This document shows positions 9,678 through 31,210 of a DNA stretch of 64,000 nucleotides, in pieces. Under the pieces are notes generated by a model. That model was not told the DNA's origin, did not search any database, and was given only the letters and a program-made list of their open reading frames with translations. Both the position numbers and the translations under genes were made by a program. Each line of letters opens with the position of its first letter. The first letter of the stretch is position 1. Source of the DNA: Isoetes taiwanensis (lineage: Eukaryota; Streptophyta; Lycopodiopsida; Isoetales; Isoetaceae); assembly GCA_021234155.1 (NCBI GenBank), contig JAJEKV010000147.1, forward strand, positions 747,910 to 811,909, given 5' to 3'.

Positions 9678-10754
9678 TTAATGTCCAATGCCATATACAC
9701 GAATAATGCCATCCGTGTAGCCACAGAACAAAGTTGCACCATCTGAGCTCCAATTCATCGTTGTGCAATAAGGAATCTACAATCACCACAAGAATTTACA
9801 AATTAAATAAAGAGATGTTAAAATAAGACAATTCAACAAAATGCTAGCAAGATAAGAGGGAAAAAAAATTAACAAAAGAGAAACTACCTGAGCCTTCTTG
9901 CTCATTTGCTGTGCTGGTAACTCAGTCTTGATCTCAGACACAATGCTCTTGCTCTCCAAATCCCATATCTTAACAGTCTGTTGTGTTGCAGCACACAACC
10001 AATACCTATTTGGACTGAAACACAAAGAGTGAATAATATCTCCTGCATCCAATGAGTACAACCTCTTTCCTTCAGCCAAATCCCAAAGCATTGCAACACC
10101 ATCTTTTCCACCACTAGCACATAGGGAGCCATCGGGAGAAACAGTTACAGCATTCACATAACCAGAATGCCCAACAAGGTTGGTCCTCAGCTTGCAATTG
10201 GTCAAATTCCAGACCTTTACCATCTTATCCCAACCACCAGAGACTATAATTGGATTAGTAGTAACAGGTGAAAAACGGACACAACTAACCCATCCTCCAT
10301 GAGCATCACCATCTTGGATTGTGTACTTGCATTCACCAAGAGTATTCCACAACTTAATGGTCTTATCCCTAGATCCAGAAACAATCTGTCTATTATCAGC
10401 AGAAAAAGCAACACTCAAAACATCCTTGGTATGACCAACAAAACGACGAGTTGTAGCTCCGGTAGCCAAATCCCATAGACGAAGGGTACCATCCCAAGAT
10501 CCAGAAAGTGCAAACTGAGTATCAGAAGAGATTACCACGTCTTGAACAAAATGGGCATGTCCGGTGAGACGGCGACGTGGATACCCACAAGTATTCTCGG
10601 CGTTGTGCTCATCCCGTGTAAGCTGCCATACCATGATGGATTTGTCCCGAGAAGAAGAAAGAATCATGTCGGAGTTGTCAATAGGAGTGGCTATGGAGGT
10701 CACCCAGTCCGTGTGACCTTTAAGGTGCCCCTTCAGAACTAAGGATTCCGCCAT
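9678..10754 (-). CDS. RACK1: RACK1, small ribosomal subunit WD40 scaffold protein
   Basis: RACK1 sits on the 40S head near the mRNA exit and docks signalling kinases. Known plant roles include hormone responses and translation control. Exon 1 is 10754-9888, the intron 9887-9777 (GT...AG) and exon 2 is 9776-9678 ending in TAA, giving 321 residues against about 327 in Arabidopsis RACK1A. Seven WD40 blades are visible, with repeated GH...WD signatures such as [24 protein letters not shown] and [13 protein letters not shown]. The last blade, [14 protein letters not shown], is encoded by exon 2. The acidic/Gly-rich loop of seed-plant RACK1 before the last blade is short here ([10 protein letters not shown]). 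I chose the Met at 10754 because it begins the conserved MAESLVLKG. An in-frame Met at 10796 would add 14 unconserved residues. The frame is intact and the gene is very likely functional. Confidence 0.95.
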
Positions 10755-11029: not shown

Positions 11030-11120
11030 GGCTCATTTGGGTTGCCCCTAGGGGGGCAAACCCTCGTTTATGTGGGTTTGTGGGATATACTGAGTATATG
11101 CTGGAATATACTCAGTATAT
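11030..11120. repeat. Palindromic repeat with a perfect 15-bp stem-loop
   Basis: Two adjacent foldbacks are present. The first, 11039-11063, pairs GGGTTGCCCC with GGGGGCAAACCC. The second, 11085-11099 with 11106-11120, is a perfect 15-bp stem (ATATACTGAGTATAT) around a 6-base loop. The first foldback and about 15 bases after it recur at 20370-20410, so this is a dispersed element, not a feature of RACK1. Confidence 0.7.
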
Positions 11121-12119
11121 GTTGATGACTGCTAAAAACCCTAAAAACCCTTTGTTCCCTGTAAATGCACGGTCAGTTGCGTTGTGGATCAAGGATGTTC
11201 TGGATCGGGTAACTGGCAGCTCCAATCTGATGAACAAAGAGTTCCGGAATTAGAAACAGAGGGTGAGCATCCAATCTGGGTTCTCGTTTTTCCGGCTGTT
11301 TCTTCATATAGTAGCGTGTATAGCTAGCCTTGCCTTAGGTTTACGTCTTCCCGGTGAATCCATGCTTATATCTAAGCAGACCTCAAGCTTTTTCTCGGGT
11401 GTTCTATCATCAAGTATTGAGACATATAAATAGGGGAAATACTCCTTCGTTAAGCTATCTACGGTTCGGAGATTCAGCCAGAAGAGGTCAGAAACCCAAA
11501 GACCGACCATGTCCATGTTGATAGGCGTGTCAGAAAAACCCAAAGACTAACCATGTCCATGTTGGTAGGCATGATATTTTGGTCGGACCATGGCCACATC
11601 CGGATCCATTGGAACCCATGCTTCCTATATATTAACGAGATGCGAGACCATGATATAGTGTCATGGAGGCTAGGCCTGGAATAGGTACCTTTTTCTCACA
11701 AATCTCATCTCAGGACATTCTAAAAGGCACAACATATCTCTGTAGTATTATAGAAATTGTGAAATGCTAACGTTGTTGTGCAATCGACCTTGTCTTGCTT
11801 AATTTCTAGTATTTGTGTAATGATTCAATACTCCTCGTATGTTGCGCAGCTTGCCTTTCTTATTTTCAGGCGGGTTATTCACAGGTCAAGTTATGTTCGG
11901 GTTGCAACATGAAAGGGTTTAAGATGGAAGTTTCCATTTCTTCAGTTTTTTCAGGAAAAATGCCAAGTTGATCCTCCTCGGGCTGGAGAAGTTCGAATTA
12001 AAAATTACTCACACTCCGCTCTATCACACAAATGTTACATGCTGGGAAGGATATGTGATTCTATTATGCTTTGCACTTCAATCTCTGTTGTTATGTATCG
12101 GCACTGAAAGTAGTCCGCC

Positions 12120-12315
12120 ATTGCAGTCTTTGGTCTAGGTGCACTTGGACTTGCAGTGAACGTCCTGTTAAGGTTTTTCAATTTATATTAAACGTAATGT
12201 TGCACATATGCATTTTATTGACACAATTATTTTTATGCAGGTTATGATAGGTGCAAAAATGGCTGCTGCTTCCAGAATAATTGGCAAACTGGCTAACTGG
12301 AAGAAGGAAGAATGA
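12120..12315 (+). pseudogene. Alcohol dehydrogenase (class III/zinc ADH) fragment
   Basis: Two short pieces match the NAD-binding Rossmann segment of plant zinc alcohol dehydrogenases. 12120-12158 reads IAVFGLGALGLAV, the GxGxxG nucleotide loop. 12241-12315 reads GAKMAAASRIIG followed by KLANWKKEE and a stop. In functional enzymes these are contiguous apart from an intron, and an intron-like GT...AG gap (12173-12240) separates them here. The NAD-binding Asp region after RIIG is degraded and the rest of the gene is absent. It is the first member of a series of gene fragments ending at 24.4 kb. Confidence 0.65.
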
Positions 12316-12596
12316 CTGGAGGCCATCGACAAGGTAGGCCAAAAAAAGGTTAAAGAAGGCTACATTTCTCAGGAGCTCTTTTGCAGCTCTCCTTTATGAT
12401 CAGCAGATAGCATTATTCTCAGGATACGGAAATAGGTAAATTCTTTTTCTACATCTGGATGGATGCAGCATTGCAGAGGTAGTAGTGGCCTCAATGTGCT
12501 AGCTCCCACATTAGTGTAGAATATACAAAACATAAAATATTTTAGAAGACAATATTAATAGGGGCCTATGGCACTTATCCTGCATCTGGTGGTCTG

Positions 12597-13035
12597 ATGG
12601 ATAGGAAAACGGATGCAGAGGTAGTAGTGGCTATAGATTTTGGCACTACATATTCTGGATTTGCATATGCCCGTCGCAGCAATCCTAACGAGGTCTACAT
12701 TTTTTACAATTGGCCTGCTTACGTTGAAGCTGGTGGTGGCAGATACTGCAAAACTAAGTCTTTTCTATTCTCTAACTGGACCTTATGGTTCCTTGGAACT
12801 GAAAGCATGGGGTTGGCCTACACTGTTGGAGTATGTTAATGCCCTTGACGGGGCCAGAGAGGCACAGAGATATCAGCCAGAGAATGAGTATGGAAATTAT
12901 AACAATGCAGAAATTGTTTCTATCACAAGTGCAAATAATAGCGTGGGATACTGCGAAATTCCTGAGAATAATAATCAGTATTCTTGGGATACTGAGAAAT
13001 CTCCTCATGACGTGCATAGAGCATTCCAGTGGTAG
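12597..13035 (+). pseudogene. HSPA12-like Hsp70 N-terminal fragment with frameshift
   Basis: The first frame gives VVVAIDFGTTYSGFAYARR, the ATP phosphate-1 motif of the Hsp70/actin fold in the form seen in HSPA12A/B-like proteins, then a stretch ending GGGRYCKT. The match then jumps by one base (near 12755) to a second frame reading GSLELKAWGWPTLLEYVNAL and continues to a stop at 13035. The remaining ATPase and substrate-binding regions are missing. The frameshift and truncation make it a pseudogene. A 17-base piece of its start (GCAGAGGTAGTAGTGGC) is duplicated at 12473-12489. Confidence 0.65.
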
Positions 13036-13087
13036 GCATTTTTGCCTACTGTTTTTCTAGGTTTTTGTTTGAACTTTCAACTAGTGA

Positions 13088-13692
13088 TCTTGGATGACAG
13101 TTCCAATCAATATTCACCACTATGGTGAAGTAAGAATGAGAACATGGAAGAAAGATGTCAGACGGGTGCCCTACTCTCATTGACACGGAATGTGCATGCA
13201 TTTCTTTGACATGTCACTTTATAATAGTTATAGCAGTTAGGAAAGTATATGGTATAAGCTCAGGATTGTATGCTATACACCCCATATCAAGTTTTTTGTT
13301 GTTCACCTTGGATTAGACAGTTCCAATCAATATTCACCACTATGGTGAAGTAAGAACGAGATATGGAAGAAAGATGTCAGACGGGTGCCCTACTCTCATT
13401 GACACGGAATGTGCATGCATTTCTTTGACATGTCACTTTATAATAGTTATAGCAGTTAGGAAAGTATATGGTATAAGCTCATGATTGTATGCGATACACC
13501 CCATATCAAGTTTTTTGATGTTCACCTTGGATTAGACAGTTCCAATCAATATTCACCACTATGGTGAAGTAAGAACGAGAACATGGATGAAAGATGTCAG
13601 ACGGGTACTCTACTCTCATTGGCACGAAATGTGCATGCATTTCTTTGACATGTCACTTTATAATAGTTATAACAATTAGGAAAGTATTTGAT
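13088..13692. repeat. Tandem triplication, 220-bp unit
   Basis: Three head-to-tail copies start from CTTGGAT...GACAGTTCCAATCAAT at 13096, 13316 and 13535; the third copy ends near 13690. The copies are more than 95 percent identical in places, so the amplification is recent. The unit lies directly before the first recognisable ABC-transporter exon, in what would be its preceding intron. Confidence 0.85.
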
Positions 13693-13821
13693 ATGCAGCC
13701 TAACACATTTCATTGAAGAATTAAGTGGCATAAATGTATTTTGATAATGCTGCTTACGGATTGAACTTATTTCTTAATATCACCACAGGTTAATGTAACT
13801 ACAATTTTATTTTACTTGCAG

Positions 13822-15641
13822 CTTGTTGGTGCCTTATTTGCTAGTTGTGTCTCTGCTGCCACTACCTTGTCAATTGTTGCTGTTGTTATATATGGTGCAA
13901 GTTTGACTTTAAATGGCAAAATGACTACTGGTTCGCTGACGTCTTTCATCCTTTATAGCCTTACAGGTTTGATGTGCAAACAAGGTTTACTTGCTATTGG
14001 GTCACGTATTTCAAAAGTATATGTGCTGAACGTTTTTCATTCCTAGTTGGCATGTCTTTTTCATCACTGTCAAGTCTTTATACAACTTCAATGAAGGCAG
14101 CATGCGCCAGCATGAGGGTTTTCCAGCTTCTAGACCGGGTATCATCCTTGCCTATAAGCGGAGATAAATGTCCGCTGAGGTATATAAATCTTACCTGATT
14201 ACTATATCTAGTCTCCACATGTTAGACTGATTGTGGGTTATCTACAGTGATACTTCTCCCGCAGAAGTGCATTTGAATGATGTCTGGTTTGTTTATCCTT
14301 CTCGTCCAAGAGATTGGGTTCTTCAGGTATTTCATTTAACTGGAAAGGATGCACCTTTGCTTTCCATCTTTAGGCATGGTCTTCATTTTCAAATGCAGAA
14401 ATCGAGTTGCATAATGAATTTTTGTTATGTGAATAATTTCCGCTATCTGTGTTATCAAGAAAACTTTATAAGATAAAAAAAATGCTTAAAAGTTTCCTAT
14501 GAGTATTTGAAATTTAATGCTAGAAGTGGTTTGCTGCAGGGAATACATCTTACCCTGAAGTCAGGAGCGAAAGTTGCATTAGTAGGTCCAAGTGGAGGCG
14601 GGAAGGTACTGTTGCTGGGATACCATGTATTTGCATTATAAAAGTTATATTTTGGTTTTCCAATATTGGCGTTGCAGACTGCTATTGCCAATTTGGTCGA
14701 AAGGTTCTATGATCCACAGAAAGGTGCAATTCTTCTTAATGGTATGCCTCTGCCGGAGATCTCACATCGGCACCTCCATGAAAAGGTAAGCTTCTCTAAG
14801 TTCTTTATTTGAGGAATATTTGTACCAGGGCTTAATGCATTTTTATGGATCTTATGTGAAAAAGTATGAATCAGATATGATGTTCTATTCCTGTTCAGAG
14901 TATCCGTAATGTAAACAAGTTGGTTTCTCTTTGATATGCATATAAGTATTGTCAGCCAAGAACCAGTGCAGATAACATATGCTATGGACTAATTGGAACT
15001 CCCCCAGCAAGCGAAATTGAACGAGTTGCAGTGAGTAGACTATGATGAATACTTTGACAAATCTAAGTGGAACTTGTTTCATATTAACTCCATTCCTCGT
15101 GTCACATGCTTATTATCAATGTCCGTCATGGATCCTGACAATCTTTTTTAATGAGAGCCACCAGCTTCCATCCTAATAAACGTATTTGCTTATCTCAGAT
15201 GATGGCGAATGCACATGAATTTATCTCCAAATTTCCGGAGGGTTACGCTGCACATATTGGTGAACGAGGTGTAAGACTCTCAGGGGGGCAGAAGCAACGC
15301 ATTGCAATAGCAAGGGCATTGCTAATGAATCCGCGAATTCCGTTACTTGATGAAGCAACAAGTGCATTGGACGCAGAGAGTGAATACTTAGTACAGGTAA
15401 GAATAATATGCTTCATGAAATAACAAATCTACAGTTTCTCATACTTTTTACTTTGTTATTTTAGGATGCAATGGACCGGCTCATGAAAGGTCGAACAGTC
15501 CTGGTGATAGCTCATCGGTTGTCAACTGTAAAAAGTGCAGAAACTGTTGCAGTTGTGACAGCTGGTCATATTGTAGAAACTGGGACTCATGACAAGCTGT
15601 TATAAAGCAATGGAATTTTTGACAGCTTGTTCCATTGTTGA
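13822..15641 (+). pseudogene. ABCB half-transporter (TAP/ABCB28-like) 3' portion, broken
   Basis: Visible exons are 13822-13966 (membrane domain end, [14 protein letters not shown]), 14047-14179, 14248-14326, 14540-14605 (Walker A GPSGGGK, split before T), 14678-14785, about 14940-15030, 15199-15396 (signature [16 protein letters not shown] and Walker [12 protein letters not shown]) and 15465-15605 (H-loop VIAHRLSTV). Most exons keep GT...AG borders and phase. Lesions: the acceptor before the exon at 14940 reads AT where AG is expected; about seven bases are missing inside the VSQEPVLFADN segment; a TAA at 15603 interrupts HDKLL, with homology (SNGIFDSL) continuing past it. The N-terminal membrane helices are absent. 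Plant relatives (ABCB26/28) are plastid half-transporters. This copy cannot make an intact protein. Confidence 0.8.
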
Positions 15642-16635
15642 CATGATAATATAAATGCCTCACAATCTACTTAGTACTTCTTTCTATGTTTTGGTGAATG
15701 TATGGAGAATAGAAGTAGAAATGCTGATAGTAAATTAGAGGTGAACAAATGGTGAATACAGTCCAAGATTTATTATCAATTCTCCAAGTTTCACCACTGA
15801 TTCTCCATGATTTTCAGGGAGAAACTTCTCCATATGGTAAAGGTGATTTATGGGTGAACGCCGGGTGAATAAAAGGTAAATTGTCCTTTTATTTTCCATT
15901 TAGAGAATCAAAATTTTTTTGTAGTGGCGACAAGGTAGGCCAAAAAGAGTTGGAGTCATTGACCTTCTATGATCCCTAAATTCTTACAACGGGTCTTTAT
16001 CCTGAGAAAGCTCCAGGAATTATTTCCCAAAGATGAGTTGCTTCTGTATGCTGGAATTTATACAAGATCTGCTTGAAGTACGTTTGGTTGAAGTCACGGT
16101 ATATGCAAATAATGGTACCTGATCGCATGCGCAACCCTTATGGGGATCGCACCAAGAGTGCTAATTTAGTATACTTGTGATACACATATCTTGCCGGATT
16201 TATTTCTAGATTGTACATATTAGTTCCCATTACTTCTATTGCTATGTCTCTTGTTGTTTCCCATGGGTAGTATAAGAAGAGCCAGTGAATAGCAAACTTA
16301 CTGAGCAAGGTTCAAAAGCAACGGCATTTTACCAGCTATTTTCATTGATTACCATCTGTGCTCATATGAAATAGAAGTGAGATTTGGGAAGTTACAGTTT
16401 TCAACTTTCATAGCGACATGAGTGACTATAGCGGCAGTTAAAATGGTCATTGATTGGTTACAATAGTTACTGGCAAAGTAAGGGTGCTTAGATTGTGTTC
16501 TTCAATTTATCAATGTTCTAGCTTGTCGAGGTTGCCAGGTATCCAAAGAGGCTGGTAGCAAGCAGCAAAATGATATACAGTTAGAAAGCATGTGATAGTC
16601 TGGAATTTTCGAGCAGGGAAAGTTCTATGGAATAA
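15642..16635. other. Spacer between gene fragments, nothing identified
   Basis: No gene is recognised. An 18-base stretch, GACAAGGTAGGCCAAAAA, at 15929-15946 is identical to 12328-12345 just after the ADH fragment, so part of the spacer derives from the same source or was copied as filler DNA. Confidence 0.4.
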
Positions 16636-16772
16636 TGATTGTTCATATGTATGCCAAATGTGATAGTCTAGAGGAAGCATTCCCCATGTATTTGAAAGAT
16701 CACAAAAGAAGAATGTGGTATCATGGAGTGCAATGATTTCAGTTTGTGTATGGGAGGGATTAAGAGACAAAG
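16636..16772 (+). pseudogene. PLS-class pentatricopeptide repeat (PPR) fragment
   Basis: One frame reads HMYAKCDSLEEAF, the classic S/L motif of plant PLS-type PPR proteins. One base later the match shifts frame to VFERSQKKNVVSWSAMIS, the start of the next repeat. Functional family members bind organellar RNA. Only about one and a half repeats survive, with a frameshift between them, so this is a relic. Confidence 0.65.
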
Positions 16773-16866
16773 GCAATGTGGTTGAACATTAATGAGTGGG
16801 TAATACTGAAAGCAACAAAGAAGAGTGAGGCTCAATTTAAAATATTGGTGGCAAGCTTAACATTTA

Positions 16867-17121
16867 ATGTGGAGCATGGTACAAGCATCTGTGTCTTTTT
16901 CTGGCTTGTTAGATAGGAATACAGTAATGCAGGGGTTGCCTGACCCCTTTCAATATCAAGAAAACATGGTCGAGTCTAATCGTTGGTATTATGCAGCATG
17001 CCAAGGTCCTGATATGGTAATTGAACAAAAGCATAGTGGGCAGCTTCAGTTCCGCAATTGGACCAACTTTAAATCAAATCCATACTTTCTATATGGCATG
17101 CATCCACTTACCTGTAGCTAG
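16867..17121 (+). pseudogene. Unidentified coding-like segment
   Basis: An 84-codon open frame has balanced composition (segments such as SNRWYYAACQGPDMVIEQ and FRNWTNFKSNPYFLYG) that looks more like real protein than chance. I do not recognise the family. It lies within the gene-fragment array, between the PPR and FKBP relics, so it may be another captured exon. Confidence 0.25.
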
Positions 17122-17491
17122 TGCCAGATAACCATGCCACTCCTTCAGGACGCAGTTTAAGGTAACATTATCTAACACTACTATACCTCTCATTTGGTGA
17201 AGTAATTGTAGTCTTTTTCACATGACCATTTAATGCACAAGCTGCAACTGCTGTAGTGCCTAGAACACAATGTAGCCTAGGGGCTAAAAACAACAAGACC
17301 ATCCTTATAATGCGACCTATCCAAGTCTATATATGCTCATTCCTTAAACATGGCCATGTGTCTTACCCAAAAAGCTTAGTTACTGCAAACTGACGGTGGT
17401 CACTTTATCAGAGATGAATTTCTGTTTCTGCTGTGATGAATGGGTTGGATACAATTTTATGTTCACTATTAATCTGCTGGACTGTTCACAG

Positions 17492-18089
17492 GAAAAAATA
17501 TGGATCTTTCTCAGAAGTTCTGGAGGTATGATACATGAAATGATTTCTTTGTAGTTGGCACCTATCCTCTTAGTACTTGACAGTTTTCTTGTATGACTCA
17601 GTACAAAGGATCTTGGGCAAAAGCAGTTTCAATTTAAAATTGGACGAGGGAATGTTATAAAAGGTAAAGTTTTTTCTCTCGAGCAGTTCATGTGAATAAG
17701 CTGGTCTTGATGTTAATCTTACAGACTTGCTATCATGTAGGTTGGGATGAAGGCGTCTTAGGTATGCAGCTTGGATAGACCGCTCACGTTCATGTAAGTA
17801 CGATGTCTAAATTGTGGCAAATCAGGACTCGTAGCTCACATAATTCAACTATGAATCTCTGTCTGTGCCATTGATCCTGTTATAGAGAAGCAGATGCATC
17901 TGGTTATATATTGCAGCTGTGGTTTTTCATTCAGAGTTATGTGCTGAGATTTGAAATTCATGTGCTGATTTGACATTGTTACTGCAGTGCTCTCCAGATT
18001 ATGCATATGGTGCATCAGGATTTTCTAGCTGGGGCATCATGCCGAATTCGGAGCTTGTATTTGAGATAGAAGTGCTTAATATATCATAG
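17492..18089 (+). pseudogene. FKBP12 peptidyl-prolyl isomerase, 3' exons with stop
   Basis: Four exon-like blocks follow plant FKBP12 in order: 17492-17525 (GKNMDLSQKFW), 17602-17663 (TKDLGQKQFQFKIGRGNVIK), 17741-17793 (GWDEGVLGMQLG) and 17988-18089 (CSPDYAYGASGFSSWGIMPN...FEIEVLNIS, stop). Splice borders and phases are kept. A TAG at 17776-17778 replaces the Glu codon after MQLG, and the next residues (normally VARLR) are scrambled. The N-terminal exon is not found. The parent protein is a cytosolic prolyl isomerase that binds FK506/rapamycin. This copy is dead. Confidence 0.8.
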
Positions 18090-19624
18090 ATCTCTAGTGA
18101 TGGAGTGTATTTTACGGATACATTGCAGAGCAGAATGAAGAAGTTGTTCTTATTATTATTAAGGAAATATAGTTTCACAACCTTCTAACTTCATGTTACC
18201 AGTCAATAACTAAATAGGATACTGTGGAAGAAGGTATCCTTTAGATCATCTTGTTGAGATACATTATGTCTGCATTGTTTTAATATGTGTTACTTCAAAG
18301 TCTGTCAGTGCACATGCCATCAAGTGTGCTTGAAAGCAAAGAGCCTAACCCCATTGCAAACAATTTATAAAATCTGCTTTTCATGTAAAAGTTCCAGCAA
18401 ATCATTTGAAACCATATGGAGTGGTGATATTTGCCCCACTTTGTATGCTCTCACTTCCATCATTTCAGGAAAATAGTGTATAATTTTTTCCTTATTTTTA
18501 CTTAGTGCTAGCAAGTTCAGCACAAGAAAGATGGCACAAGGCTGCAGGTTCCTCAGTCATCAACCTTTGGCACCCCATGTCAACCTTGAATAAGGTGCGA
18601 CACAGTGGCAAAGTTATGTGGTTGTGAGCTTTGGCTCATCATCATTGACATACTAGGTGTGTATGTGGCCGTGAGCTTTGGCACCTCATCATCAACCTTA
18701 AATAAGGTTGCCCGACGACACCTACCATATTGATATTAGGAAAAACTACATAATGCCTTGATATTAGGAAAAACTACAAAATGCCTCTATGAGTTTATGT
18801 AATTACCAAAATGCCCTTATGAGTTTAAAAATTACGTAAAGAAGATTTGATTGAAATTACGGGGATGTTACATTATTTTTATGTAGAGTAAAAGTTTCTC
18901 CGCCTTTGCAGAGCGGCGCCGCTGACTCCCCTGTTTGGGTTTGGCCACTGCCGGAAGCATCCCATATCTGATTCGATCTTACATAAGTCCTGGCGATCTG
19001 CTGCTCCGATCCGTTGATCAAGATGCTGCCGTGATCTTGAGAACTGCCGCTCAAGGGATGATCTGCAGGGCCAATATTGGACTGTCCTTATATGATAATG
19101 GCGTCATTTGATGCTGGAGATGTGGGCACTTTGAAATCTTTTGCACAATCTTCTGAAATGATCCCAAAGCAGTGAACCGATAATAGCTTTATAGAGCGTC
19201 ATGGCCAGAAAGCTTCGAAAGAACCGTGCCATAGCCACCGCCAGAGCCACCGTAATTTCAATCAAAGTCTTCTTTACGTTTTAGAAAATTTGTTTTAAAA
19301 ATTTTACGGTATTGGCAATTCCTGTGCATGCAATGCAAACTAGTGTGGAGCATTGGGGCAAGATGCAGAGATATCCAATCCAAGACAGTTATTTCATTCT
19401 GCACCAGGAGAAGCGAAAACTCAGAGATATGGAGAGGAAACTGTTGGCGTAGGCATAGTTTCTTGTACTTTTTACGCAACAACCTAGACCTTTTCACGTG
19501 ATGCATGGATCTTCTATTATTAAGGCCAGATGTTTGTCTAGTTAGTTATCTTTTTAAATGAGGCATTAGATTCAAATAATGTAGAAGCACCAGAAGCTGA
19601 TATCTTCTTTTGGGACCTGTCTAG
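18090..19624. other. Spacer between gene fragments; contains a dispersed AT-rich repeat
   Basis: No gene is recognised. 18735-18840 holds a dispersed AT-rich repeat related in inverted orientation to 7135-7215. Around 18895-18910 there is a GC-rich palindrome (AGCGGCGCCGCT). The frame on the minus strand at 18857-19054 has no recognisable family. Confidence 0.4.
18735..18840. repeat. Dispersed AT-rich repeat (inverted relative to 7135-7215)
   Basis: Internal duplication of GATATTAGGAAAAACTACA, then CAAAATGCC and ATGAGTTT words repeated. The reverse complement of 7135-7215 aligns across most of its length (AGGAAAAACTACCAAAATG, ATGAGTTTATGTAATTA). Confidence 0.55.
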
Positions 19625-20010
19625 ATGTTAATGAGTGCCACGCTAAATGCAGCAATTTGGTTTGCCTACTTTGGTAACTACCCCGTTATCCAAGTTCCGG
19701 GTTTACATTTCCTGTTCAAGTTTATTATTTGGAGGACATTCTTACAATGATATATTCCAAGGATGACACAACCACCAGTATAGATAAGATGGCTGAAGAT
19801 GCCAGGATTAGCAATATGAAGGAAGATGCCGAGAAAGTGGATGCTGCAGCAATGTGCGCCTGGTCAGACCATGACTTTGAACTACTAATGGAAATTTTAC
19901 CAGAGGGTGGTAGTTCTAGTGGTAAATTAGCAGCATGCTTTGAATTGTTGGAGGTTATTTTGCAATGTATGCTCGCATCATATGTTGTACAAATGTTGAT
20001 TGAAGAGTAA
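19625..20010 (+). pseudogene. DExH-box RNA helicase fragment with frameshift
   Basis: After an acceptor-like CTAG the sequence reads MLMSATLNAAIWFAYFGNYP, which contains helicase motif III (SAT) of DEAH/RHA-type RNA helicases, then VIQVPG. One missing base moves the match to the frame FTFPVQVYYLEDILTMIYS, the conserved segment that follows in this family, and that frame stays open to a stop at 20008. Motifs I, II, V and VI are absent. The piece 20046-20150, after a GCAG acceptor, looks like another exon (VDNNVQDKFR) that I cannot assign. Confidence 0.65.
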
Positions 20011-20334
20011 ACAAGGTTCTAGTTATAATTTACTCATGTTTGCAGGTCGATAACAATGTGCAGGACAAATTTCGTTGGATGATATGGAGTATGGGTAATT
20101 GCCTTCTCTGTTAAGTGGGAACGAGCAATATGAGGATGGTTTTACCAAACCTACAGGTTTCCTCAAGCTTTGCTGTAATTGTCTTATTTCAACAAGACCT
20201 CAACACCTAAGAAGAACTTAGTAATGCAAATGCGTACCATCACCTTCACAAAATGTCAATGTTTTAAAATAGCAATTTAGATTCAAATACTCTATTGTCT
20301 ACAACTATAACTTAAGCCACTTCACTCTCCGGGC

Positions 20335-20425
20335 ATGGAGGGCAACCCTCCGTGCACAGCACCTTGTTTGGGTTGCCCATAGGGGGGCAAACCCTCGCTC
20401 ATGTGGGGTTATGGTATATTGTTAG
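20335..20425. repeat. Composite dispersed repeat shared with 11.0 kb and 31.85 kb
   Basis: The left half (GAGGGCAACCCTC, GTGCACAGCACCTTGTTT) recurs at 31846-31890. The right half, 20370-20394 (GGGTTGCCC...GGGGGGCAAACCC) plus the following ATGTGGGG, recurs at 11039-11080. It therefore joins two pieces that occur separately elsewhere in the window, and probably represents the fuller element. Confidence 0.6.
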
Positions 20426-20429
20426 GGGT

Positions 20430-20530
20430 AATGTTCGGGCATAGGCCATTACGCGGGGTAAGGCCACCTGGCGAGCCCGTTAGGGCGAGCCAGTGGCCGC
20501 ACCCCACGTAATGGCCTATGCATGAACATT
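20430..20530. repeat. 101-bp foldback, near-perfect palindrome
   Basis: The outer arms 20430-20453 and 20507-20530 pair at 22 of 24 positions (AATGTTC...GCATAGGCCATTACG). Pairing continues inward through GGGGT-GGCCAC and GGCGAGCCC/GGGCGAGCC to a short loop near 20480. No ORF is present. Size and structure suit a small foldback/MITE or a hairpin RNA source. Confidence 0.75.
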
Positions 20531-20980
20531 CCCCCTCAAAATGTTAGGGGTAGGCCACATTTCGCACGTGTGGCCACATTTTGGACAGTCTTGACATTTC
20601 CAGCTATGGCGAGGTCGGCTATGGCGGTCCGTTAGCCGCTTGGCTTCCTTGTCCATTTTTTTGCTTGCTGCATCGTCTTTTTGTGTGTTGCGGACTGTCT
20701 GATGTTGATTTTGGCGCTGGCGCCTCGATTTTGGAGCATTTTCAGTGGCGCCTGCATCTTTTGTGTTGATTCAGCATTTTCTGACAGTATTTTCACAGTT
20801 TAGCATGATTATCTTTCGATTTTGATGATTATCTTTTGATTTTGGCATGATTTTTGTGAAATGCATGCGTCCTAAAATGTTTTTCTTGCATATTTCGTCG
20901 GCTGGAGGTACATGCAACAGTGGCATCATTTCTTGCGAAAGATCTTGATATTTTGGCGAAATCTTCAGGTAAAGGCAAGG

Positions 20981-21394
20981 CTATCCCGACCTTTCTTTCT
21001 TGCTTCTGTTATTTCTGAGCAAAAGCTGTATCATATTAGGTGGAAGACGGTCTGGCATTGAACCACCAAAATGGTTATTGCTTGCATCGAAATATTGCAG
21101 GCTTTTTAGGCCGTCTAGAGCAGGAAGGTCGCCTCCCAATTCGTTAGAAAAGATGTATAATCCCTGTAGAAGTTTTAAAGAGCCGATTGATCTTGGCAGA
21201 AAGCCCGTAAATCTGATTCTTGAGAGGGAAAGATAATGTAGTCTTGGCAGACTGCCTATTTCTGCAGGAATCTGGCCAGAAAGATTATTTCCCGAGGCTT
21301 CAATCTTCACAAGGGAAGATAACCGAGATATTGATGCCGGAAGAGGCCCATGGAATGCATTTCCTGATATGTCGAAAAACTGCAAGGCAGACAT
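20981..21394 (-). pseudogene. Plant leucine-rich-repeat protein fragment
   Basis: The 137-codon frame carries five plant-type 24-residue LRRs (LxxLxLxxNxLxGxIPxxIGxL), for example GNNLSGQIPAEIGSLPR, FTGFLPRSIGSLK and LQYFDASNNHFGGSMP. It comes from an LRR receptor kinase or receptor-like protein ectodomain. Signal peptide, transmembrane helix and kinase are absent on either side. It is the only member of the fragment array on the minus strand. The frame itself is undamaged, so it could be a recent capture. Confidence 0.7.
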
Positions 21395-21768
21395 TGTAGA
21401 AATAAAGGGAGAAACTGAAATTTTGAATGGAGACTGAATCTATTGGTGAATTGTAATATCTAATTGTGAAGTTGAATTTAATTGTGAATTTGAATTGTGC
21501 TGGCACAAGCACTGCCAGATGGCACTAGCTAGGACAACTGGCACTAGCACCCTGCCAGGTGTCACAGGAAACTCAGAGAAAATTATAGGATGTAAAAATG
21601 ATGATAATCTAATCTAACATTTCGTAGGGATATGTTAATATATGCTTGAAATATTCGAAAAATTGCTCCAAACCTGCTATAGCCCTTAAACTGGCGGTTA
21701 TCTGCGAGGCCTATCACTCATATCGTGTAACCGGATCATGAAGAGCCCAAATCGGGCCACAAACGACA

Positions 21769-24410
21769 GTAATATTTTGGGGCTTGGTCCCAAGCATTTC
21801 TTTGAGGACAAGTTGAAGAAAACATTGAAGGTTTTGGATGGTGTAATAGCTTGCAGAAAGCTTGTCAATTCACCTGCTAATGTACTTACTCCTAGTGAGT
21901 ACTTTTGAGATAAATTCCTTCTTTTTTTGTGATCGCGGTGTTTATTGAGTATCATAATCCTTATATGCAGGTGCTCTCGCTGAAGAAGCTGAAGAAATAG
22001 GTTCAGCTTACAGTAATGTGATAATGGTAAAGATCTTATAGGAAGAGGCATGCAGAGAGTTAAAAATGGGGTTGTATCTTGGTGTGGCAACTGCATCTGC
22101 TAATCCTCCTAAATTTATACATTTACAATATAGGCCAAGTGGGGATATGAAAGTGAAATTGGCAATTGTTGGGAAGGGGTTGACATTTGACAGGTTATGT
22201 GTGTTTGAATTTTCACTTAATTGTGAATCCTGTTTTTGGACTTCTTGCTGCCGCATTCTTCTGCAAGTGGACTCCCTGGCTGCATGATTGTGTAAATATT
22301 GATTGGTTAGACACATAGGCTTATGTAGAGGACACAAAATGTTTTATTGAATGATTTATTTGCCCCTGAAACCTTGAAAAGTGGCACTTATTAGAAAGAG
22401 ACTGTTGTATTGCCTGATAACTGGTTGTGACTGAATTGGCATCTTGCAGGCTAATTGTTGCTATATCATACTTTTCCTGGGCCTTTTTCCCTAAAAAGTT
22501 CTTTCTTAAATCATTTGCAACTTTCCCAATCCATTATTGTAAATCGCTTTCTGTTTTCAAGACGTCGTCTCTTGGGAGCAGCTGGCATATGTCATTTCAA
22601 ACTTTAGCCATTGGCAACTTGTTTTTAAGCCCTGCAGTTCATTTTAAAGATACCAATACCAGGGCCTCTTTTCTTTGGGACACTCCTTGTTTTTTTTTCC
22701 TTTTCTTTCTCGAGTAATTGCTGGCTTTGTAATTTAACAGCCGGCACAATTTAACATTAGTATATTTTGCAGTGGAGGGTATAATCTGAAAACAGGTCAA
22801 GGATCGGTATTAAGTTGATGAAGTTTGATATGGGTGGTGCTGTCGCTGTGCTAAGAGCAGCTAAGGCAATTGGAGCTATAAGCCCACCAGGAGTCGAGGT
22901 CAGCATTAGCTCTGTCTTCCAACTAGTTTGCCATATATAATTTATGCAATCCTATTTGCAGATAAACTTTATCGTTGCAACATGTGAAAACATGATAAGT
23001 GGTACAGGAATGCGACCAGAAGATAGCTTCTAATGGAAAAACTATTGAGGTTGTTTTTATATGAGATAATGGGCATTAACAATTGAGAACCCTTGGTCAA
23101 CTATTCTCACGAGCTTGACGTTTTTACCATTATCACTTTGCAGGTAAATAATACAGGCGCTGAAGGCAGGCTGACCTTGGCTGATGCACTTGTCTACGCT
23201 TGTAAGCTTGAAGTTGACAAGGTGAATCCACTTTGTTCTATGAAGTTTGGGGTCAAATGGTGAAATATTTATGTCTACTAGATTAGGGTTATCTGGAGCA
23301 ACATTAATAGTCATTTGCATGTGTTGAATCATGCGTTGAATTGTGGGCTTCCTCTTCATATGTTTTGGTAATACTACTTCTTTAGCTGGTGGGTAGAGAG
23401 AACCTGAATGGGAGGATACCTAATATGGCGAAGACCAGCAAATGTGAAGTACAGCAGATATTAGAAGAAGTTCAAATGATGTGAAAGAATTGTGTTCCTG
23501 GTCAGATCATCTTTAAGAGTATGAACTATGGTTAACAAGTATTTTAGTTTCGTAAAGGATCTTCAAATTCTTAGTTTGTTGTGACTGTCCGGCATCATCT
23601 TGTTCAGCAATAAAAAGGCTGATTCCAAAGAGTTCACCTTTTTATCAAAAGAGTTTGGAAGGTGTACATTTGAAAAATGATGTCTGCTGTATTTTGTTTC
23701 ATGTTTTTCTTTGAGATATATGTATAAATTTTCTATTGTCTTCATGACGATGTTTATGTTCTATTTCTGAGGTGCTGCAATGGTCTTTGTATGCTTGCAG
23801 ATTGTTGATTTAGCCACGCTAACTGAAGCATGTGTTGTGGCTCTTGGAAATGAAGTAGGAGGTAAGAAACTTATGATGTAAAATTGATGTCTTTCCTACC
23901 TCGTTATTGTTGCTTCGTTATGTTATACTACAACTTTGATGCCACTAGGAAACTAGATTATGCTAGCTTGAACTATTCTACAAAATCCAGTCTAATATCA
24001 ATAGGGTCTTGAATGGCGCAGGCACGTTTACACCAAATGATGAACTGGCGAAAGAACTGTCAGAATGCTCTAGGAAAGTTGGAGAGACGCTTTGGAGATT
24101 GCCTTTATAGGACGCTTATTGGGAAATGATGAAATCAGGAATTGCAGATATGGTGAATACTGGTGGGCGTGCTGGAGGATCCATCACAGCAGCACTTTCT
24201 TGCGACAGGTGATTTGTTAAAATATTGTTGCCACTGGTTGGTTGATCATAAAACTTATTCTGGAGTTTCTGCCTGTAGTTTGTGGATGAAAAGATACCCT
24301 GGGGCACATTTGGATATTGCTGGCCCTGTGTGGAGTGAGAAGGAACGGGGTGCAACTGGGTTCGCAGTTGCGATTTTAGTAGAGTGGTTTTTGAAACACT
24401 CTGCTTCTTG
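21769..24410 (+). pseudogene. M17 leucine aminopeptidase, inactive remnant
   Basis: Eight exon-like blocks match plant leucine aminopeptidase in order: about 21769-21894 (RKLVNSPANVLTP), 21971-22193 ([27 protein letters not shown]), 22773-22898 (KLMKFDMGGA), 22962-23049 (CENMISGTGMRP), 23144-23221, 23801-23861 (DLATLTEACVVALG), 24022-24208 and 24278-24410 ([17 protein letters not shown]). Introns are retained, so it is not a processed copy. Damage: TAG at 22039 and 24108, frameshifts in exons 3, 4 and 8, and NTDAEGR changed to NTGAEGR near 23155, which removes a metal-binding Asp. The N-terminal half is missing. Confidence 0.85.
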
Positions 24411-24981
24411 ATGGCATGTTGGATGTTGAAGCCTGCTGCAAATTTACTTAAGGGGTGAAATACAGCAAAAGGTAATCATTTGGGCATCTGCAGGGCTCTG
24501 AAGTTATATTGATTGTCTATCAGGAATGGTCTACCAGCATCACTTTATGCTCTAATCAGGTATAGTGGTATGCTGAGGAAAATAGTTGGGAAAATAATAA
24601 AATTGCGTTGAATTTTGTAGTTCTTTTCCATTTTTTCTATGGACTTTTGATGCACTCTAGTTTCTTGCATGTTTGCATACCATTTATGAGTAGTGGGCGT
24701 ACCCTTGGGAAGAGTCTATGGAACATCAGTGTATACTATTAAAGCAGTTGATACGGATATGTAGTAGCAAAATTTATAAGACAACAAACTATAAGCTCAT
24801 TAAACTGTAAGTCTCACTGTATTAAAGGGAGAACTATGCTTAGAAGATGATCATTCCTGTAAAAGAAAATTGTTTGGAAGCATTACTTGGTGTTTTTTTC
24901 TCCAAAGTGGGGGTGGTGCATGACTGTATATATTGGGATGTTTCTGCATTTTATATGATTAGCACAGTTTGTCAGCAGGCT

Positions 24982-25133
24982 GATTGCTGCCACGGTTTTT
25001 CCCTCGAAAACCCTTCGGGGGGGGGTTTTTTAATCCGGGCAGTAATCCGCTTGCTGCGTTTTTGTATTGGGTCCCATAGACCGATTGGTCTCCGTGGACG
25101 ATAAAAGTAACTTCCTTCCTTCCTTCCTTCCTT
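24982..25133 (+). mobile_element. SINE-like element with (CTTC)n tail
   Basis: The head contains GGTTTTTCCC...GAAAACCCTTC, a G-run and a T-run. The 3' core is CCGATTGGTCTCCGTGGACG followed by ATAAAAGTAA, and it ends in a (CTTC)n microsatellite at 25111-25132. The same core followed by other short tandem repeats occurs at 27.96, 31.2 and 58.4 kb. Short size, no ORF and a simple-repeat tail fit a SINE or another LINE-mobilised element. Clear pol III A and B boxes were not found. Confidence 0.55.
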
Positions 25134-26182
25134 AAATCTTGAATAAGTCCTGACTCCACTACATATAGCTCTAGTACCTGGATATGTCTGCCTTGCCATC
25201 CTATCAGTGTCTCTTTCATTTCATTTGAGGACCTTTATTGGGAGTCTACCTTGCCATACTATCAGTGTCTATCTTCTAGGCTAGGCAGTTCTCTTAATTG
25301 TAATTTGGGGATAACACGGTCGAGAAGGAAGATTTAAAATTCCTTATTTTTTTTCCTAATTAAGATTGAGAGTTCCCTTTTTTCTTTTCCTAATTAGGAA
25401 ATCTTATGATAAGAATGTACATTCATATACAAGTATTTGAACTATGTAGGCCTTCTATGAAGTTGAATGTAACTGTTTTGAGGAGTGTAGACAGTAGATG
25501 AGTTAATTGTAATATGGAGATACCATCGTAATATGGGGATAACACGATCAATAAGATTAAGATTCACCAACCCCTTTTTTTTTCTTTCCTTATTATAGAA
25601 TCTTATGATAAGAACGTACATTCATATACAAGTCTTTGAACTATGTAGATCTCGTGCGAAGTTGAATGTAATTATTTTGAGGAGTGTAGATAGTAGATGC
25701 TTGAGTTAACATGGATAAGGTTTTCGGAATAACCTATGAATACGGAAATGTTTTGGACCTAACATATGTCCTCGTATTGTTGGAAATAGAATTTTGTGAA
25801 GATTCTATAGATTTTTTATAGTCTGTCAAAATTCCATTAGATTGATAGTTTTGTGGTTCCCAGAGATTCTTAATAAACAAAACAAAACTGGGAATGATAT
25901 TCTTATCGTAGAGATATATATTATTACATTTGCTTGTATCAACTTTGACTCGCATTTTGAATAGTATCTCCTTGAGACCTTATGATGCAATATTGGAGTA
26001 TTGCTTGAAGTTTGAATATTGCAGTTTGACAAACAGTCCTCAGATAATTTTGCACCAATACAACATCTATAGCATCCTTGTAGGCTAGCTTTAGATTGGT
26101 TGAACCAGAGATGTAGATGCTCATATTAGATATTGGAAGGTTTTGCTTTCGTTAGAGGAGTCAAGGGATTTGGCTTGCTCAT

Positions 26183-26283
26183 ATTGTAATTGTAATTGTA
26201 ATTGTAATTGTAATTGTAATTGTAATTGTAATTGTAATTGTAATTGTAATTGTAATTGTAATTGTAATTGTAATTGTAATTGT
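26183..26283. repeat. (ATTGTA)n hexanucleotide microsatellite, about 17 copies
   Basis: An uninterrupted run of about 101 bp of the six-base unit, with no variant units, indicating recent expansion. It lies in geneless DNA. Confidence 0.95.
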
Positions 26284-27948
26284 TTGCAATTTTAGTCGTG
26301 TTTGGGAGATGCCTTTAAATAGGGACTACAATACAGATCGATATAGGTTAGGTGCCATTAATGGAACACGGTAAGCCCATCTATGATGGGTATAGGAAGC
26401 CAGTCACGGTGACAAGCAGTACTTTGTGGTCCAAACAAGAGCAGACTATAAGGATTGATGAAAAATGCACCTCAAAAAGTTGATGATCCATTGGATCCTA
26501 AGGTATGTAATGGAGGTTGCTACGATCGCCACCATATTAGCATTGAGGAGATGCGAGAAAGTTATTGAATCATGGTGCAACATCATAATAAAATGCCCAG
26601 TGGCATGATTAAAGTTGATGATCATAATCTAATCCACAACTTATTTCAACTCGTCTCGGCATATCTAATCTCCTATATTGTGTTTGAGATTTTTATTCGG
26701 CGGACATCATAATGAGTCGGTTCATTGATGATTATTTTGAGCGATGCTAAATTACAAAAGCACACAAGCATTTATTCCAATTGTGAATGAAATGTGGTTT
26801 GTTAGCATAAATGATACCACAATTGCATAGTTATTTTGTGAATGATATGTCTTAATTGACAATCAAGTTGGTTCAGTTCCAATGTAGTTTGAAAGTTTGT
26901 TGAGAATACTGCTAGATGACTTCTCTCATCAACTATTATAGTACTGTTACAAATTGTCGCTGTTGTACAGTTCTTCCTGAAATATCATTTGGCAATTGAA
27001 TCTCTTCATGCATATGACAATTTGATAGTTTGTTCAAAATGGTGCAATGTATGAAGTCTAATGTATTTTATTTTCGGACTATAGATTTTGTAATCTATTA
27101 GATTTCTTGGCACTTTTAATATTGCATGGAGATTCGTTTAGATTTGCCCCCCGTAATAGTTTTTGACATTCCTCGAAAGTCTTTTTATGTTTCTTAAGAA
27201 TCTTGTTAGATCTTCGAAGAGCAATTTTCATCAAAGTTCTCCACATTGTATTGTATAAACCTAAAGATTTTGTAAGATCCCATTAGATTCCATAAACATT
27301 AACAAAGATTTCATTAACATTTCTTTAGAATGTCGATTTCCTCATATTTCTTAATATTCCAAGATCTCGACAGGGTGCAATATAAAGTTGTTAAATGATC
27401 AGTGTTTTGAACGCTATTAAATTACAAAAGAACATATAAAGTCCAGGGAAAATGAGCCATTATGAATGCCTATTCCTCTCCAGGATAAATTATCTCAAGC
27501 CATACTTTTTATAATTTATTCCAAGGGGAAACAAGCCCATATGGGGATTACAATTGCAACCTCCTCTCCTCCCTTCTTGCATTTGTAGTGCAACCCGAAT
27601 CGAAGGTGTGTGTGCATTCTAATATATCCATGTGTTAAGAAATTTGAGGTGGATGTTCATTAGAATGATTCATAACTTAAGCAATACCTAGACATGCTGA
27701 TCTAACCATACAACCTATACGTTCTCTTCTATAAATAGAGTTTTGAATTAGGTTTCAAAAGGCAAAATACTTAATTTTTTTTTATTTATCTCTCTAAAAT
27801 CCATGATTATTCTAAATTATTTCCTTTTCATGCAATAGATTTCTTCCCTCATTCTGCGCCAACAACTTTTCTATTCTAGAGTAGCTACGGTCTTATTGTT
27901 CAAGGTTGATATCAAATATTTGCTGGCATCTCTTTGAGCTATCCATAC

Positions 27949-28020
27949 CTCATGGCCAATTTGGTCTTTGTGGACGTTAAAAACCATATCTGTCTATATG
28001 TTTGTCCATCCGTCCGTCCT
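27949..28020 (+). mobile_element. SINE-like element 3' end
   Basis: CCTCATGGCCAATTTGGTC and TTTGTGGACGTTAAAAA match the 3' core of the 24982-25133 element. The tail is a degenerate (TGTC/CGTC)n run at about 27990-28020. The head is missing or too diverged to see. Confidence 0.45.
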
Positions 28021-28790
28021 AAAGTTGCTTAAAATATGCCTTAGGATCTTTCTGTGATGGGCCTGCCAGGTTAGCCCTCCAGGTAATCCGAGGTCCCATT
28101 AATACTTGCATGAACATTAACAAGTTGATATACATGAATTGAACAATGCAATGCAAAAGAATTCTTAATCCTAACTCAAGGTAAAGAATTGAATCTTTAA
28201 TCCCAACCATATTCAATAACATGTAGGACCTCAACTCTCAAAATATAATATCATGCTAGATAGATTGACAATGCTTTAAGGTCTAAGGATCCACATGTTA
28301 AGTTTATAAAAGAATAACAAGGCCTTGCTACAGGCTCACAAAGATCTCCCAGGCTTCTAACTCAGTTGAGGCTTTGAACTACACGACGATCCTTCAAGTC
28401 TCATATCTATCTGCTTACACCATGAACACGTGGGGTTAATCATAAAGACTAAGTGGGGGTTTAAAGCATTTAGAAAATGTTGGCATAATCACAAGAAATA
28501 TTCTTAGACTTAGATGCCTCACCTGAGAATCTCATTATACTAGAAACCAGCAATGCAATGTTAGCACATAACATGAACACTAAGAAGTAGATTATGAGGA
28601 TACTAAGTTACCATGGTTTCTTACAATGCTCTTTGTCTGTATGTGATTGTATCGAGTCTGATATATGATCTTGATGATCTTGTTGTGCATGGTCTATGGA
28701 TGATCTTGATAAATAATCTAGCTCTTAATCTTGCACACATTGCACATCATTGGAAAGGAGCTATCACTTATATTTAAATCCTTGTCCTAT

Positions 28791-30476
28791 TGTGGCGCTC
28801 TCCGCGTAACATACGATGCTCCATTGTCTATCCCATGGAAATCTCCCATTTAATAGCAACTGCCATATGAGCCCTCTGTCTGCCCCACTCCTAGGATGGC
28901 CAGAGCATGAGAAGAGGACATAGAGTCTTGCACGCTTGTCCCCTCTGGACTTCTATAACAATGGAAGAAACATATCTATGTCAGCGCTAGCAATAATAAT
29001 AATAATCAACTACCACGAATGGTAGTGCAATCCATCCATAGATCCATGTGATATATCAATACATCAATAGGCCTCCTATCCAGGCTCAGACTCATAAGGG
29101 AAGATAGACTGACAACTTGGGTCTCAAGATAAAACAAACCGAGTTATGGCAATGACTTGGGCTGGCAAAAGACAATGGCTAGGGTTGACCACTCCATCTG
29201 TCCCTCATGTGCATACTATGCAGATGGGCTAAATTAGTCTCTGTCGTGACTGTAACCTGTCGGAGATGCAATCTCTTGATATCACCCAACGAAACTACTC
29301 TGAGTTGCATCTCCCCAGTCTGATGAGGTAGGAAGTGTTGCATCTCCCCTTCTGGGGTTGCATCTCCCTAGTCCCATGAGGTAGGAAGGGTTGTATCTCC
29401 CCTTCCCATAGTGCAGTGGCTCCATAGATGGCTAGAGGATCGTGGTGACACACGTCCTTCTCTGACTGAACTTCCCAAAACAAGAGCCAGGCCAACCCCT
29501 CCAACTCTTGAGAGTTAGGGGTGATACCATTTACCCAGAATGTATTGGACTTATACGAGACCCTCACGAAGTGACCGACTATAAGTCTAGCCCGCTATGG
29601 GTTCCTAGTAGCCGTGCTCATAGGGACCTTCCTCTACTTTGCCAGTAACCCCCTTGTATGGTGCTCAGTCACTTCATAGCTCCCAGAGCTTGGTGGGCTC
29701 TATGCACATGCCGCATATAATGGGAACTAGGTCCAATCTAAGAGCATCATCTAAATAATGGCTATTAGGTCACTACCCCCCTTCCTAATACAAAAAAAAA
29801 AAAAAAAAAAAGAGATCAACCAGCATCATATATCCACATAACATGATAAATGTCGAAATATCTAATCCTAACCATATGCATCTGAATTACAGTTAGGGTT
29901 CATTGATTGGGGGTTCAAAATCTGAACTGAGGGTTCTAGAATGGCTCTACTAGAGATATAAGGCACTAATTCATCTGGAATGCTAACTTCCAGATGATTT
30001 ACTAAGGAGACTACTCAAAGTACCTGCTCCGGAGGAACTTCTGCCAGCTCCTGATGTCTCCATCACCCTGCAGGTGTTTTGGTGTAGCTTCCTTTCCTCC
30101 CAATGCACACTCGCTCCTAGGGCTGTTGCACTAGATTGTGCTACAATAAATGATCCACGAAATGGAGTCATGAACGCGAGCTGAGGTCAAGAACTGCTTG
30201 AGCTAGAAAATGGCCTAGATCTAGGGTTTAGCCCTTAGTATGTTAGGGCTGGCATATCATGCCATGTGGCTCCATAGGATGTGTCCATGTGGCTGGTCAC
30301 CAATAGGATGGAGCCACGTGGAAATGGTTCCATATGTAAGGTTGGCTGAGTTATATATAATGACTTAGCCATGCCCCCTCCCCACACTAATGTATACAAG
30401 CCTACTAAGGTAGGCTTGTATCGTGATGTGGCCTAAAGTATATGTATTTATGTTGTATATTTTAGGAGAACGTCAC
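28791..30476 (-). mobile_element. LTR of the same retrotransposon family (copy 3)
   Basis: It starts TGTGGCGCTC (copy 1: TGTGACGCTC) and ends AACGTCAC (copy 1: AACGTCACA), giving 1686 bp against 1670. Blocks near 29010, 29160-29230, 29400-29450 and 29690-29730 align in order with copies 1 and 2. No primer-binding site lies on its left. A pyrimidine run CCCCCTCCCC follows directly on the right, which would be a polypurine tract on the element strand, so this may be a 3' LTR whose body lay to the right; no pol remains there. A run of about 20 A at 29790 lies inside. Confidence 0.65.
30394..30421. repeat. Perfect 11-bp stem-loop near the LTR edge
   Basis: ATACAAGCCTA (30394-30404) pairs with TAGGCTTGTAT (30411-30421) around a 6-base loop. 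It lies inside LTR copy 3 near its element-strand 5' end. Copies 1 and 2 lack an obvious equivalent. Confidence 0.6.
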
Positions 30477-31210
30477 CCCCTCCCCACGAGCATAATGATG
30501 TCCTCAGCATTACGATAAGGTGAAACAAACATGTGTCAACCTTAACAACACTTGCTTTGTAACATTACCATTCTTTTAATATATTGATGACACAATTTTT
30601 CAAAAAAAAAACCTTAACAACTAAAAGCAATAAGGGATGTAATACTTAGAATTTTATTATTGCGATAAACTTCCAATGATTAAAATATTGTGGATCACGC
30701 ATGAACGATGATACACTTGGCAATATCTTGAGACACACTCAACAATTGAAGCTGGTGTATTTCTTACTGGTTGTTTACTGTATCAAAATATGCCTAGCCA
30801 ATTATGTTAAATTTTGCGCAAATTTCTGGTTCATGTGCAACGTAAACCATACTACTCAAGCGTGTCTTTGGGATTCTATGTGTTGGCTTAAAATTTGAAC
30901 AAAATTTGCAAAACTGCGGACAAAATAACAGTTTTGCTACATTGCACGAAGCTGCAACTCTTAAAAATTTTTAACAATGGAAGTTAACATTAGGAAGTGC
31001 CTCTCTGTAGAAATTTTGTTGTACACTAAGTTCACAGCTATTGCAACACATTAGGCTCGTATTTGTTTGAAAAGCCCATATATGGCATCTTATAAATAAA
31101 ATTTTATAACTTGACTTGACTTGCTTGACCACATATTGCATTTGATTTTTATTGAAAATAAAGACTTGACTTTGGTTGAAATTACATGCACGTGATAGTA
31201 GTTCATATTT

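Follow-up and report, generated by a model that had tools for sequence, protein, structure and literature searches.

Gene pieces in an Isoetes taiwanensis array were probably carried by two head-to-tail Helitron2/Helentron-type elements and by transposons nested in them

A 64-kb stretch of the Isoetes taiwanensis genome (C960:747910-811909, hereafter the window) contains eight unrelated gene pieces between 12 and 24.4 kb. Within it, positions 11036-31887 very probably (at a probability of about 0.83) consist of two non-canonical Helitron-like elements of the Helitron2/Helentron type, E1 and E2, which stand head to tail and are both non-autonomous (Table 1). The gene cargo came by four elements of three kinds, namely E1, E2, a CACTA transposon nested in E1 and a third repeat (element 3) nested in E2. 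An earlier interpretation made from the letters of the window alone (hereafter the sequence-only reading) had placed the array at 12120-24410 and ascribed it to Helitron (or Pack-type) transduplication. These limits proved too narrow, the units being 11036-20369 and 20367-31887. Multi-gene capture by Helitron-like elements was borne out, but not by a single element: the ADH, PPR, FKBP12 and DExH pieces in E1 and the LAP piece in E2 are cargo of the Helitron-like elements, while the HSPA12-like and ABCB pieces arrived via CACTA and the leucine-rich repeat (LRR) piece via the third repeat. Genome-wide searches covered 1,658,258,908 bases on 1,110 contigs (C numbers denote contigs, and L001-L070 sequence stretches fetched from the genome).

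The limits of E1 are defined by its copies. Among 48 match rows, 19 begin exactly at 11036 and others further right, and the sequence left of this base is matched by the window itself and by a paralogue of the neighboring RACK1-like gene on the same contig alone, and by no transposon row. L006 and L017 end at the same right edge as the window copy, near 20366, with CACCC or CACCTTG followed by a T-run. When up to two mismatches were accepted, the left end TTTGGGTTGCCCCTAGGGGGGCAAACCC had 2786+2885 = 5,671 genome matches and the right-end hairpin core CATGGAGGGCAACCCTCCGTGC had 1914+1979 = 3,893, each control sequence having 0. Twenty right ends, fetched from plus-strand exact matches of the hairpin core, all continue as GCAGCACCTTGTT (one letter differs in L050 and L055), and their flanks diverge beyond. 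Among the 47 exact right ends on C1-C134, 17 have an exact left end no more than 15 kb upstream on their own strand, compared with 2/47 for left ends on the wrong side and 3/47 on the opposite strand. Ten out of ten complete copies, seven of which (L060, L061, L066-L070) were chosen for paired exact ends, sit in T-runs without target duplication; beyond the T-run, at most one base is shared in the eight copies measured by script, the other two being judged by eye. Within E1, 3 nt separate GGGTTGCCC from the 5' end and 18 nt separate the inverted GGGCAACCC from the CACCTTG terminus, each repeat lying in a hairpin.

The left-end copies L001-L006 also bear on the proposal that the array descends from an ancestral gene cluster or arose by segmental duplication. 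L004 and L005 have one flank in common, being duplicates of one insertion that is counted once, and the leucine aminopeptidase (LAP) loci on C13 and C1059 are mutual duplicates, as such a proposal would have it. Nevertheless, the six copies possess five different flanks and parent-like sequences of the gene pieces lie on different contigs, making this origin hardly tenable.

Regarding class, E1 is reminiscent of Helitron2 and Helentron/HINE elements, with asymmetric/subterminal inverted repeats at both ends and a T-rich target devoid of target-site duplication (TSD). Hairpins are present at both E1 termini, although the right-end z is only -1.50 and the E2 right end is degenerate. Excerpts of two papers on Helitron2, Helentron and HINE elements (PMC5148889, PMC4067079), which cover their termini and targets as well as their sparse gene capture, report the same arrangement: asymmetric/subterminal inverted repeats with 3 nt between the 5' repeat and the terminus, a hairpin at each end, T-rich targets with border T strings and no TSD, and tandem as well as composite copies. 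Two differences concern the host, here a vascular plant, whereas the hosts in these excerpts are fungi, invertebrates, fish and Chlamydomonas, an alga, and the cargo, with several host-gene pieces per element here, whereas in the excerpted Helentron paper gene pieces are rarer than in the Helitrons of maize or of bats.

Capture of the whole array by a canonical Helitron (Helitron1, with 5' TC, 3' CTRR and insertion between A and T) or by a Pack-MULE was examined and rejected as scarcely credible. While the genome does hold canonical-type Helitron domains and a CTRR-type end occurs at 37.57 kb of the window, the mapped ends are TTTGGGTTGCCC and CACCTTG, in a T-run target and without TSD. For Pack-MULEs, full-length relatives lack a TSD beyond the T-runs and no inverted repeat of at least 40 nt frames the array. 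Neither the A/TC...CTRR ends nor the MULE inverted repeats for which the sequence-only reading had suggested a search were found at the array edges, where the ends are Helitron2/Helentron-like. The Helitron terminus it had placed at 37.57 kb is indeed a canonical 3' end on the minus strand (37575-37600, a GCCCGGCAACGCCGGGC hairpin and then CTAG followed by T, by eye); being of the CTRR type, it differs from E1 and E2 and a link to them was discarded. Gene-capturing maize Helitrons contain multiple unrelated, intron-bearing pieces per element, which are copied to new sites. They are set apart from E1 and E2, which have other ends and another target, by their TC...CTRR termini and by inserting between A and T. 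Gene capture by maize Helitrons is cited in excerpts of PMC4683698 and PMC5148889.

Several observations weigh against the assignment of the array to two elements of this class: 1) the right-end hairpins do not clearly outdo shuffled sequences, 16/200 and 11/200 shuffles folding equally well; 2) just 18 nt separate the 3' inverted repeat from the CACCTTG terminus, less than the 20-60 bp in the excerpts of PMC5148889 and PMC4067079; 3) a search with the joined flanks disclosed no site cleanly empty of the array; and 4) in the copy of E2 on C982, about 11.4 kb of other DNA lies between the two stretches read, and this copy is presumed to be one unit. The joined-flank search matched both flanks, some weak repeats and, next to the RACK1 paralogue, a 60-bp piece of the left flank; the paralogue stretch (L065) has a T15 run near the corresponding spot, which suggests a hint of an empty site. 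Finally, 5) no autonomous partner was found among six Rep loci of 8.5-9 kb each, which show none of these ends and were picked by open reading frame (ORF) length from the best 150 (all above cut-off) of 1,813 candidates in a PF14214 (Helitron_like_N) profile search over the genome; this ranking puts canonical Reps first and such stretches may fall short of an end. The Rep of these six loci is, we presume from its motif, canonical. Many of the best 150 Helitron_like_N matches sit in long open frames.

Comparison with subfamily copies shows E1 to be a recombinant, in which the left part of subfamily A and the right part of subfamily B are joined at a 3-bp microhomology. Indeed, E1 matches subfamily A (L001-L003) up to 12286 and subfamily B (L004-L007) from 12284, the left part of the subfamily B copies themselves being short. 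The alcohol dehydrogenase (ADH) frame extends beyond 12286 in the subfamily A copy L001, as SRIIGINTNPAKF. The B-type cargo junctions are repeated in L004, L006, L007 and L017: L004-L007 share the junction at 17454, L004 and L005 have those at 19310 and 20191 too, and the one at 20191 is present in L006 and L017 as well. Since identical junctions are found in other copies, the gene-piece array is beyond chance. The cargo has been shown to be genomic DNA with introns, as the sequence-only reading had proposed, and the same chimeric junctions have been shown to occur at other loci; thus, the elements went on being copied once capture had taken place. Transposition would be of the rolling-circle type and driven by an autonomous partner, and capture may have occurred through end bypass or template switching.

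Table 1. Features of the array and its surroundings as interpreted here (window positions).
Feature	Position	Strand	Basis
RACK1-like WD40 gene (name presumed)	10300-10754	-	WD40 match; gene start 281 bp from E1 left end
E1, probable Helitron2/Helentron-type element, A/B subfamily recombinant	11036-20369	+	left edge as in A and B copies; right edge as in L006, L017
E1 left terminus, TTT + GGGTTGCCC subterminal inverted repeat in hairpin	11036-11063	+	end count; fold z -3.16
Class III ADH piece, two partial exons with intron	12114-12286	+	PDB E 0.0033
A-to-B switch, 3-bp GCA microhomology	12284-12286		comparison with subfamily copies
Duplicate of E1 sequence found from 15928 on	12327-12351	+	at CACTA left edge; uninterrupted site in L004-L007
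CACTA transposon without left end, right end ...TTTTTTTGTAGTG(G)	12352-15927	+	copies L008-L011, whole or partial
HSPA12-like Hsp70 piece (name presumed)	12436-12950	+	92% to L030
ABCB transporter exons and introns	13820-15606	+	ABC_tran 5.5e-23
Pentatricopeptide repeat (PPR) piece, weak call	16599-16790	+	PPR E 0.0069, under cut-off
FKBP12 piece with introns	17454-18567	+	94% to L027; FKBP_C 1.1e-14
DExH (DHX36-like) helicase piece	19310-20191	+	95% and 90% to L028; DHX36 4.1e-11
E1 right terminus, 10-bp-stem hairpin with GGGCAACCC, then ACAGCACCTTG	20333-20366	+	end count; fold z -1.50
E2, probable second Helitron2/Helentron-type element	20367-31887	+	starts at E1-terminal TTT; related copy on C982 (L015, L026)
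Element 3, GTTAGGGG...CCTAACATTTCG, palindromic left end	20421-21624	+	complete copies L020, L063, L064
LRR gene piece in element 3	21004-21415	-	97.3% to L029
LAP gene from internal exon, and downstream DNA	21772-30549	+	collinear with C13, C1059; Peptidase_M17 1.2e-47
E2 right terminus, degenerate GGGCTACCC	31846-31887	+	as 3' ends of L021, L022 (incomplete), L026; fold z -1.68

The second element, E2, begins where E1 ends, with GGGTTGCCC present again at 20370, right behind the E1 end. On C982, L015 holds a left end and the LAP junction at 21772 (it matches 21625-22323), and about 11.4 kb beyond it L026 corresponds to 22321-23217 and then to 30990-31887 with the right end. Because of the GGGTTGCCC repeat at 20370, the right end at 31846-31887 and this relative on C982, E2 is assigned to 20367-31887. 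Compared with C13/C1059, its LAP block consists of 21772-28574 (minus an insert at 24909-25130) and 28800-30549, at 79-96% by block, and the cargo includes about 6 kb downstream of the gene. Regarding the missing 5' part of LAP, the window left of 11 kb is matched by none of the LAP loci. The LAP-block insert (24909-25135, roughly 226 bp) has at least 36 matches at 98-100% with the same start base and a TTCC-repeat tail, and looks like a recently active element akin to short interspersed elements (SINEs).

The joint between E1 and E2 has counterparts elsewhere. Junctions of a right end and a left end at most 12 nt apart number 34 genome-wide when searched as exact strings (control 0), and 17 of them are the identical, minimal GCAGCACCTTGTTTGGGTTGCCC; the window junction carries ACAGCACC and stands outside these 34. 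One of the 20 fetched right ends, L040, is likewise a right-end/left-end tandem. E1 closes at its 3' side with a TTT, at which E2 would have been inserted or with which it would have been co-inserted. Alternatively, 11036-31887 could be one composite transposon moving as a unit, E1 and E2 forming a dimer by rolling-circle read-through, in line with their meeting exactly at a common TTT and with the same minimal junction recurring in half of the close junctions. However, relatives of the E1 type and of the E2 type are found separately (L006, L017, C982), the body sequences of E1 and E2 are unlike, and none of the matches listed for a query spanning the joint crosses it. A composite unit is therefore improbable.

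Within E1, the sequence is interrupted by a CACTA element, which has been shown to belong to a family carrying the HSPA12-like and ABCB pieces. L008-L011 extend further left than the window copy, which retains the right end only. In L008 and L011, the left end reads CACTAGAAAAA, the right end reads T(T/A)GTG with one additional A, and ATT and GAG occur as 3-bp repeats; these are CACTA termini and a 3-bp TSD if one extra right-end base is allowed. The uninterrupted site, GGCCATCGACAAGGTAGGCC, is found in four out of four B copies (L004-L007), and CGACAAGGTAGGCCAAAAA flanks the window CACTA piece on both sides. The left end would have been lost in a break that was repaired partly from the uninterrupted sequence, the 3-bp TSD then being CGA. 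CACTA elements with gene pieces are known as Pack-CACTA. The nested element resembles these in the CACTA ends and 3-bp repeats of its complete relatives and in its intron-bearing gene pieces, but it differs by its absent left end and by the extra base between right end and 3-bp repeat. Three tandem units of about 219 bp occupy 13089-13800 of its cargo and are present in the CACTA copies too.

This left edge, with its short duplicate of flank sequence, and the 3-bp microhomology at the A/B switch are what serial insertion of filler DNA during double-strand-break repair, without any transposon, would leave. The sequence-only reading had offered such filler DNA as its alternative, and the CACTA left edge does resemble templated repair. 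For the array as a whole, this explanation is very unlikely in view of the ends shared by thousands of copies and of identical junctions at other sites.

The third repeat has been shown to lie, with its LRR piece, in E2. Its copies L020, L063 and L064 lack a TSD when the right end is set at ATTTCG; when it is set at CCTAAC instead, ATTTC stands on both sides in L020 alone. L062 lacks a matching element 3 left end. The C982 copy has, roughly at the position of element 3 (L015, about 1600-1920), a different insert, GGGTGAAAGC...GCTTTTACCC, and this insert and element 3 of the window lie within a few bases of each other in the E2 left end.

The identity of the eight gene pieces was assessed with peptides hand-spliced from the window. 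Pfam matches were obtained for ABCB (ABC_tran, 5.5e-23), FKBP12 (FKBP_C, 1.1e-14), LRR (LRR_1, 1.5e-14) and LAP (Peptidase_M17, 1.2e-47), and for PPR under the cut-off (0.0069). The ADH, HSPA12-like and DExH peptides are without a Pfam match; in PDB, the best match of the ADH peptide is class III ADH (E 0.0033) and the DExH peptide matches DHX36 (4.1e-11). The HSPA12-like piece and its longer relative L030 match neither Pfam nor PDB entries, and the name presumably applies on account of an N-terminal motif. The eight pieces named by the sequence-only reading are thus present, with weak HSPA12-like and PPR calls; its statement that all but LRR lie on the plus strand agrees with the strand check, LRR being the sole minus-strand piece, and introns, read by eye, occur in several.

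Sources of the cargo are also supported. Frames are longer in L013 (LAP, extending leftward), in L029 (open on either side of the LRR stretch) and in L030 (extending beyond the 12950 edge of the HSPA12-like piece), and L027 retains a further exon, VTVHCTGYG, ahead of the FKBP12 stretch, which we take to be an FKBP12 exon. The DExH flanks in L028 differ from those in E1. Parent-like sequences were found on separate contigs (C929, C1066, C963/C1036, C1041, C13/C1059), and the alignment to the whole genome that had been proposed as a check yielded further copies with shared ends, as well as parent-like genes on other contigs. An ADH parent was not found among the best 40 matches, which were filled by subfamily A copies, and for PPR solely a relative at 83-94% in pieces (L033) was found.

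Gene cargo is not confined to the window. Host-gene Pfam domains were detected in three of the seven further full-length copies (L060, L061, L066-L070), namely AAA (L060), PPR (L070) and, under the cut-off, Sina_TRAF (L066); as ten ORFs were picked by eye, 3/7 is no rate. L061, a full-length 7.2-kb relative of E1 and E2, has an ORF without Pfam hit. By its motif, this ORF presumably resembles the reverse transcriptase of long interspersed elements (LINEs). Whether this thousands-copy Helitron2/Helentron-class family shuffles genes across a whole lycophyte genome, to the extent described for canonical Helitrons in maize and in bats, while growing via subfamily recombination, nesting of gene-carrying transposons and precise head-to-tail joining, is in our judgment an evenly balanced question. 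Gene capture is frequent in canonical Helitrons, foremost in maize (excerpts of PMC5148889) and also in bats (excerpts of PMC4067079), and multi-gene capture by them is known; here, non-canonical ends are combined with multi-gene cargo, outside seed plants. No title or abstract opening in the literature searched reports multi-gene capture by Helitron2-type elements of lycophytes. Since the word Helitron is absent from the main text of the Isoetes genome paper, as far as excerpted (PMC8566536), such copies may go unrecognized in gene and repeat annotation. The 34 tandem junctions offer a direct route to studying joined-end intermediates.

The array of E1 and E2 lies 281 bp upstream of the WD40 gene, which we take to be RACK1-like. 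Its close paralogue is located about 80 kb away, also on C960, and the promoter of the RACK1-like gene may be affected by the array.

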